DNA of 64,000 nt, taken from Halohasta litchfieldiae. Its GTDB lineage: Archaea; Halobacteriota; Halobacteria; Halobacteriales; Haloferacaceae. The notes beneath the pieces are model-generated. The model was not told where the DNA came from, made no database searches, and saw only the letters and a program-made list of their open reading frames with translations. Position numbers and translations under genes: made by a program. Position 1 is the first letter of the stretch; the number at the start of each line of letters is the position of its first letter. The stretch lies in NCBI RefSeq assembly GCF_002788215.1, contig NZ_CP024845.1, positions 1,116,001 through 1,180,000 of the forward strand. The letters are read 5' to 3'. Below are positions 4,531 through 37,794 of this stretch, in pieces.

Positions 4531-4586
4531 AATGGAGCACCCACACTCCAGCGAGGATAGAGTAAGTCGGGGCAACCCGGCTGGCC

Positions 4587-4602
<16 letters not shown>
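4531..4602 (+). CDS. Possible 23-codon leader ORF before the LeuA-like gene
   Basis: ATG at 4531 opens 23 codons (starting MEHPHSSEDR) ending TGA at 4600-4602, overlapping the synthase GTG at 4587 in another frame. TTTATT at 4500-4505 sits 26 nt upstream, so the ATG would be the leaderless start of the transcript. It has no run of Leu or Ile codons, so classical attenuation is not indicated. It could be a leader peptide, a chance ORF, or a sign that the synthase start is elsewhere. Confidence 0.3.
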
Positions 4603-7107: not shown

Positions 7108-7228
7108 ATGGTCGTTTCGCTCACTGCGTTCGCTCTACTCCCTGATTCAAATCTCTTGTCTGGCACACAACCACTCGCGGGAGACCGAGAGCCACAGAGG
7201 GCTCTCGGCGTGTTGCTCGCGGTAGAAG

Positions 7229-7313
7229 CGCCGAGAGAGAGATTTGAACTCTCGAGTCCGAATGGACAGTAGATTTCGAATCTACCGCCTTGGCCAGGCT
7301 AGGCTATCTCGGC
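7229..7313 (-). tRNA. tRNA-Ser (anticodon CGA)
   Basis: 85-nt cloverleaf on the minus strand: acceptor GCCGAGA pairs with TCTCGGC, the anticodon loop TTCGAAA is closed by GTAGA/TCTAC and gives anticodon CGA (reads UCG), there is a long variable arm as in class II serine tRNAs, and the T-loop is TTCAAAT. Discriminator base is G; CCA is not encoded. No intron seen. Confidence 0.93.
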
Positions 7314-13125: not shown

Positions 13126-13166
13126 CACCAGAAAGCCCCGACTCGTCTCTTTCAGTCCTAACCACT
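13126..13166 (-). repeat. Short copy of the GGACTGAAAG...GGGGCTTTCTGG hairpin element
   Basis: On the minus strand the sequence runs GGACTGAAAG, a short self-pairing GACGAGTC, then GGGGCTTTCTGGTG. These are the same end modules as the long elements at 13189 and 37527 but with the whole interior missing. It sits head to head with the 13189 copy, 22 bp away. Confidence 0.6.
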
Positions 13167-13188
13167 GCCGGAGGATCAACCACGTTGA

Positions 13189-13306
13189 GTGGGACTGAAA
13201 GGGGCCGCCGTCTCAACGAACCCCGGTGAAGTAAGCACCACAGCGAGTGTAACGAGCGAGGAGCGCAGCGAGCCGCGGGAGTTGAGGCGGCGGGGGCTTT
13301 CTGGTT
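13189..13306 (+). ncRNA. Candidate structured RNA / palindromic element, copy 1
   Basis: 118-nt intergenic hairpin. Ends GTGGGACTGAAAGGGGC and GGGGGCTTTCTGGTT pair through GAAAG/CTTTC; inside, GCCGCC (13204-13209) pairs with GGCGGC (13286-13291) and TCAAC (13213-13217) with GTTGA (13281-13285). The loop holds AAGCACCACA and GAGGAGCGCAGCGAG. A second copy at 37527 keeps the ends and loop modules but changes both sides of the inner stem, so pairing is conserved. Function unknown. Confidence 0.55.
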
Positions 13307-37404: not shown

Positions 37405-37794
37405 GATGTTGCGCGTTGATGCTCTGATTCTGCTTTCCGTTAACTGAGTGCTATTAGTTCGACAGTGAGACTGTGGAGAACCAGACATCCCCCTCCCACC
37501 TACAGCCGATGGACCAGCCGCACTGGGCGGGACTGAAAGGGGCGAGTCGCTCCGGGAAGACGGCCGACGCAAGCACCGCAAGCCGCAGAGCGGCTGAGGA
37601 GCACAGCGAGGCCCTCGACTGGAGCGACTCGGGGGCTTTCTGGTTGTTCACGTCTTGCATGATTTATCAGTCTCTAGAAAGTTGGAATTTATCGATACCA
37701 CCACTATGAATCTAATCAATGACAGAGTTGATGCTCAGAATGGTGGAAGCCGAGAGGTTGGGGTGGCCCCGCGCTATGAGAATACAATGGCTAT
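37405..37794. other. 390-nt intergenic region containing a structured element
   Basis: No protein gene seen. The centre (37527-37645) is the second long hairpin element, annotated separately. The rest, toward 37650-37794, is AT-rich and unremarkable. It marks the passage from the Pho block to the accessory island. Confidence 0.6.
37527..37645 (+). ncRNA. Candidate structured RNA / palindromic element, copy 2
   Basis: 119-nt hairpin with ends GCGGGACTGAAAGGGGC and GGGGGCTTTCTGGTT. The inner stem is 11 perfect pairs, CGAGTCGCTCC (37543-37553) with GGAGCGACTCG (37621-37631), unrelated in sequence to that of copy 1 at 13189. Loop modules AAGCACCGCA and GAGGAGCACAGCGAG match copy 1. Paired change on both stem sides supports a folded RNA or a palindromic mobile sequence. 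Confidence 0.55.

Follow-up and report, generated by a model that had tools for sequence, protein, structure and literature searches.

By behaviour, the closest described systems to the repeat family reported here are the small mobile repeats and 'SwitchRepeats' of Haloquadratum (PMC3119063) and, in bacteria, the REPINs (PMC3116915). The SMR-A elements of Haloquadratum (HqIRS42, 43 and 55) are about 110 bp long with strong inverted repeats, occur in tens of copies and encode no enzyme; they are near-identical within a type and are sited within near-terminal palindromes of PATE/IS605 elements (PMC3119063). At 'SwitchRepeats', the same site holds a different repeat or one in the opposite orientation (PMC3119063). 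REP units measure 20–40 bp, and REPINs are extragenic inverted doublets of hairpins found in many copies (PMC3116915).

The present family is represented at two sites in a 64,000-nt stretch of the Halohasta litchfieldiae genome (the window), and we refer to its unit of about 110 nt as the module. Modules resemble SMR-A in this length, in their prominent inverted repeats and many copies, and in encoding no enzyme, and 'SwitchRepeats' match the switching of module interiors described below. They differ from SMR-A, compared here by description, in their great diversity, their placement in ordinary intergenic DNA and their fixed internal architecture: mean column identity was 56 per cent across 91 modules, in place of high identity within a type, and 30 tnpB loci carried no module at their 3' ends, in place of a site in PATE/IS605 palindromes. 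Like REPINs, they are non-autonomous, multi-copy and arranged as extragenic inverted hairpin doublets, but they are archaeal, contain several conserved internal loops and have no known RAYT partner, and instead of a 20–40 bp unit with a GTAG/CGTC tag we found a unit of about 110 nt with the ends GACTGAAAG...CTTTC. In both cases the family lacks a defining, testable feature of the known system.

HEARO and omegaRNA elements also have an ornate RNA fold and many copies, a good number of them without an ORF. The modules share the ornate, multi-copy fold and differ in having neither a linked IscB or TnpB nor an Rfam match. We also considered the 108-nt insert in the 5S rRNA of Halococcus (PMC7812874), which is similar in length, haloarchaeal, and built as an unbranched long helix with internal loops; its sequence is unrelated, and our covariance model matched none of five expanded 5S genes. 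In a search of the window no Rfam family matched the modules at its gathering score, permissive searches gave chance matches only, and the one close paper that literature searches for the sequence, or for intergenic repeat RNAs of haloarchaea, brought up was that on Haloquadratum (PMC3119063). The hairpin family is apparently undescribed.

Shared fold and covariation

An earlier note on this DNA had proposed a structured RNA family with copies at 13189-13306 and at 37527; the coordinates and sequences of both sites were borne out on re-inspection, and the two, the second spanning 37527-37644, are family members. We built a covariance model (R1) from 91 modules and examined pairing in two alignments, A1 (made with MAFFT) and A2 (70 sequences that the model retrieved, mainly from other genera). 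The shared fold opens with GGGnGGG-ACU, in which n can be T, C, G or A, followed by a 5-bp stem (P1), a GGG/GGG internal loop and a 13-bp stem (P2); a third stem follows P2 across a short internal loop, and at the apex the conserved AAGCACC and GAGGAGCGCAGCGAG surround a variable hairpin. The core is 85–128 nt long, mostly 100–122. The parts of the two window copies, and one related copy elsewhere in the genome, are as follows.

13126..13306, + strand: complete head-to-head doublet, with a degenerate left module (- strand), a centre and an intact right module (+ strand), delimited by comparison with an intact doublet of the genome and with doublets of other genera
13126..13161, - strand: left arm with its interior deleted, GGACTGAAAG-AGACGAGTCGGGG-CTTTCTGGT, retaining P1 alone; based on the intact left arm of a composite in the same genome (2698321-2698433)
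13162..13192, no strand: hairpin at the doublet's centre, with the stem CCACT / AGTGG around GGATCAACC
13189..13306, + strand: intact right module, type 1; R1 score 124 bits, E 9.8e-24 (the sequence is in the R1 training set)
13197..13201, + strand: P1 5' strand GAAAG, pairing with 13297-13301 CTTTC; invariant in A1, covarying in A2
13202..13204, + strand: GGG on the 5' side of the GGG/GGG internal loop, opposite 13294-13296
13205..13217, + strand: P2 5' strand, partner 13281-13293; variable, always paired
13233..13272, + strand: conserved apex, AAGCACC ... GAGGAGCGCAGCGAG flanking the variable hairpin (from A1)
13281..13293, + strand: P2 3' strand, partner 13205-13217
13297..13301, + strand: P1 3' strand CTTTC, partner 13197-13201
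37479..37500, - strand: left-arm remnant, AACCAGACATCCCC plus the start of the centre, CCCACC
37523..37645, + strand: second intact module, type 1; R1 score 110 bits, E 5.8e-21 (the sequence is in the training set), fold z-score -3.9
37535-37539 / 37636-37640 and 37543-37555 / 37619-37631, + strand: P1 and P2 of the second module
Genome positions 1540734-1540861, - strand: copy of a second subfamily (locus L010, around 1501; others are L354 and L356-L375)

The ends around P2 are identical in the two window copies. In the first copy P2 reads CCGCCGTCTCAAC / GTTGAGGCGGCGG, with 12 Watson-Crick pairs and one T.G, and in the second CGAGTCGCTCCGG / CTGGAGCGACTCG, with 12 Watson-Crick pairs and one G.T. 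The claim that the inner stem had been swapped for a different paired one therefore stands: the P2 sequences are unrelated, both are 13 bp, and both pair from end to end. Fold z-scores on the + strand were -2.9 for the copy at 13189 and -3.9 for that at 37527. The 3.33-Mb host genome contains six module copies by BLAST and six by the covariance model. Elsewhere in the window are two ordinary RNAs, a leuA-Halobacteria RNA at 4546-4598 (+, 65.4 bits) and a tRNA-Ser (cga) at 7228-7313 (-).

Across the family, the sequence of P2 is nearly free and its pairing is kept. In A1, 92.9 per cent of cells were paired, against 27.6–47.8 per cent when partners were slid. The covariation score was 0.484 in A1 and 0.625 in A2, the latter alignment being fitted to the model's structure and so leaning towards it, versus at most 0.080 for slid partners; none of 500 shuffles reached the observed value. 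The outer pair of P1 in A2 was GC in 44 sequences, CG in 22, GU in one and UG in one, and the next pair was AU in 52 and GC in 16; such two-sided changes can also be read directly from the unaligned sequences (CAAAG...CTTTG, CGAAG...CTTCG). The GGG/GGG loop had G in 68–69 of 69 sequences on its 5' side and in 68 of 68 on its 3' side, and the unpaired loops were the best conserved columns of A1. Pairing and covariation in both alignments thus support the structured, covarying family that had been claimed. The repeated rewriting of stems with pairing kept indicates that a fold of one strand, probably as RNA, is under selection, and the evidence that a single-stranded fold is selected is strong. 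The consensus 5' end GGGACTGAAAG resembles AUUGAAAG/C, the handle of crRNAs from type I-B CRISPR repeats in haloarchaea; the resemblance is probably due to chance, because in other genera P1 has covaried to CAAAG or CGAAG.

Distribution and copy number

Among 148 genomes from the host's taxonomic family, a strict sequence pattern had matches in 58 and its reversed control in none, so the pattern occurs far beyond chance. The covariance-model search of haloarchaeal genomes that the earlier note had suggested recovered a wide family: within Halobacteriales, R1 had matches in 161 of the 194 genomes searched and in 53 of 64 genera. When 148 genomes were sampled across the phylum, R1 matched 21, every one from Halobacteriales, and none outside that order. 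When more candidates were scored with the covariance model, four genomes contained at least 85, 73, 64 and 60 copies. A scan of the genomes of 84,980 species gave at least 120 matches; among the matches listed, all were from Halobacteria or Halobacteriales MAGs. Modules are also carried by 20 haloarchaeal plasmids, with no Haloquadratum record among the plasmid matches. We rejected a halovirus or phage origin, with zero matches in phages or viral contigs. That a module found in about 80 per cent of haloarchaeal genomes, in at least 85 copies at the upper end, has no Rfam entry and no description in the papers searched exposes a considerable gap in the annotation of archaea; if transcribed, the module would be among the most widespread structured RNAs of archaea.

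Doublets, switching and spread

The earlier note had taken 13126-13166 for a minimal copy on the other strand that might be a deletion derivative or a partner. We found no separate copy there; the region is a deletion derivative of the partner arm, the left arm of a doublet minus its interior, as is clear from doublets in other genera and from a composite that the same genome keeps intact at 2698321-2698580. In the composite two modules lie head to head with a short centre between them, and its outer ends read AACCAGAAAGCCCC / GGGGCTTTCTGGTT. The left arm has also been deleted at the 37527 copy (about 37479-37500) and at a copy at 1092791. Doublets are common in other genera, where the arms are 13–36 nt apart and a motif similar to GGATCAACC, GGATCAGCC, occupies the same place in the centre. 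By a loose text test, roughly one-third of modules (77/231) belong to inverted doublets in extragenic space. The terminal inverted repeat GTGAACAACCAGAAAGCCCC is present in the window's own genus. At locus L060 (genome position about 659274), near a tRNA, the element's outer ends are inverted around an unusual interior.

At five of 15 shared sites the two species compared have different, still paired, interiors within the same ends; in one of the five the interior lies in the opposite orientation, and at two further sites the element is absent from one species. Four of 262 modules look interior-inverted, and we noted interiors inverted between intact P1 and P2 arms at L197 (9521-9632), L086 (2819-2939) and G092:C1:494890. 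In one replaced copy (L266/L285) the 3' arm is new but the 5' arm is the old one, which leaves a single G.G mismatch; ectopic recombination that broke within the stem would be expected to give such a hybrid. Because interiors are replaced en bloc, covariation between copies reflects replacement in part, and not point compensation alone. Such switching at the same site between sister species amounts to a natural experiment on stem rewriting without loss of pairing, and it may offer a general frame for what Haloquadratum shows, both its small mobile repeats and its 'SwitchRepeats', so far unexplained.

Four nearly identical copies in one genome delimit a recently copied unit of about 149 bp, running from about 19 nt before the module to about 14–21 nt after it. 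An empty site at one locus has a clean 3' boundary and an ill-defined 5' boundary. A genome of the window's own genus (G021) is without the element, but about 285 bp differ around the site, so that it is not a precise empty site. The element behaves as a dispersed repeat, which the earlier note had not foreseen. At G015:C2 2714262-2733910 four nearly identical modules in one orientation lie within 20 kb, with nucleotidyltransferase- and PIN-like reading frames recognised nearby by eye.

Constraint and the folding strand

We compared ten orthologous modules between two species that are about 95 per cent identical, keeping only sites at which the search motif survives in both copies. The modules were 98.1 per cent identical without a gap column, and the 150 bp on each side were 92.0 per cent identical with 444 gap columns (p 2e-15). 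Leaving out the 21 positions per module that the motif fixes, divergence within modules was about 2.4 per cent versus 8 per cent in the flanks. For these ten sites in one species pair, the comparison shows purifying selection at individual sites.

Mismatches in P2 differ by class. We counted P2 pairs by position, with no folding step, in sequences found by their ends and not by their pairing. Among 117 non-redundant modules there were 62 G.T/T.G and eight A.C/C.A mismatches (binomial p about 2e-11), and among all 177 usable modules 93 and 11. A strand-blind process would give equal counts, because each class is the complement of the other; the excess of G.T therefore identifies the strand as read, which carries GGGnGGG, as the folding strand. 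The simplest reading would be that this strand acts as RNA, though single-stranded DNA folding of the same strand would give the wobble asymmetry too. The doublets, which put two modules on opposite strands, would be odd for one RNA. No AT-rich box was found at a fixed upstream place, which counts against a promoter of the module's own just upstream.

Competing explanations

The family is probably best explained as a dispersed halobacterial repeat, non-autonomous and built on a structured RNA module of about 110 nt that often occurs in doublets or joined to a second structured domain upstream. The folded strand would act as RNA, co-transcribed from neighbouring genes or made from its own promoter, and a protein or RNA partner would recognise the constant frame (GGGnGGG, P1 and the GGG/GGG loop). 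Ectopic recombination between copies, through the conserved ends and stems, may exchange the distal domain, and an enzyme supplied in trans may spread the copies. Many copies might then be retained for a useful RNA, or because the RNA is harmless only if correctly folded. A rival account dispenses with RNA function: one DNA strand would fold as single-stranded DNA, and a tyrosine or HUH enzyme would cut and move it, as for REPINs or attC sites. Strand-specific folding is compatible with this, the dispersal and turnover of copies favour it, and the inverted doublets are as in REPINs (PMC3116915). However, several conserved asymmetric internal loops and the apex exceed the needs of a hairpin substrate, individual sites are under purifying selection, the ends in the inspected alignment have no GTAG/CGTC tag or integron-type core motif, and no enzyme is linked to the modules; we give this account roughly a one-in-several chance. 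Far less credible is a neutral quasi-palindrome in which template switching and gene conversion maintain pairing. The en bloc replacement and inversion of interiors would suit such a process, but correction is strand-blind, yet G.T outnumbers A.C about 8:1, the unpaired loops are the best conserved columns and orthologous copies diverge less than their flanks, so that we disfavour it strongly.

Two further readings tie the module to genes. Of 128 modules, 122 are intergenic by a crude gene caller, and where a gene starts downstream the module's 3' end mostly lies 80–100 bp ahead of the start codon; AT content is higher in the 100 nt following the module than in the DNA preceding it, and runs of T are commoner downstream. 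The spacing and the T runs are what a cis-acting element of neighbouring mRNAs (a riboswitch, terminator or processing site) might show, but orientation relative to neighbouring genes is the same as in other intergenic gaps and the named contexts have no common gene function (seven annotated plasmid contexts all differ), which makes a cis-acting role improbable. On plasmids of Natronorubrum, Halopiger and DL31 (L183, L185 and L189), we observed a module near a gene annotated as a DNA-binding or OB-fold protein. Haloarchaea are rich in IS605/IS1341-type TnpB elements, and the host genome itself has 15 TnpB zinc-ribbon matches, as might be expected if the module were a guide RNA (omegaRNA) or an end fragment of such an element. 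When the 3' ends of 30 tnpB loci from relatives were scanned with R1, nothing resembled a module apart from two fragments of 20–22 bits, and these ends read ...GGTAGTTCAC or similar. The tnpB linkage that the earlier note had raised was thus not found, and the guide-RNA reading, refuted for the families sampled, has hardly any probability left.

A constant frame with differing distal domains

Within the preferred reading of a dispersed RNA module, the frame can be separated from what it carries. A second subfamily, present in 18 of the 293 Halobacteriales genomes searched and including a copy at 1540849 of the window genome, keeps the frame and P2 with another distal domain, GTTYACGTGGTCG ... 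CTAT ... GATAT; the frame is therefore more constant than its cargo. We suggest, as a rather unlikely elaboration, that the frame is a duplex-quadruplex-duplex RNA in which the GGG/GGG loop and GGGnGGG would form a three-tier, K+-stabilised G-quadruplex docking exchangeable distal domains of at least two types; the element would then represent a novel class of RNA, both modular and mobile. The idea comes from the conservation of G tracts that are separated by a nucleotide free to vary, and from the high (molar) potassium of haloarchaeal cells.

In a second arrangement, an upstream structured domain GGCGCG...GAGGGATGAG...GGCTGGGGAGG precedes the module on the same strand. At L250, L251, L259 and L205 this domain consists of a variable stem, a conserved CTCCGT loop and the GGCTGGGGAGG end, and some copies share the apex GCACCG...GAGGAGCGCA.
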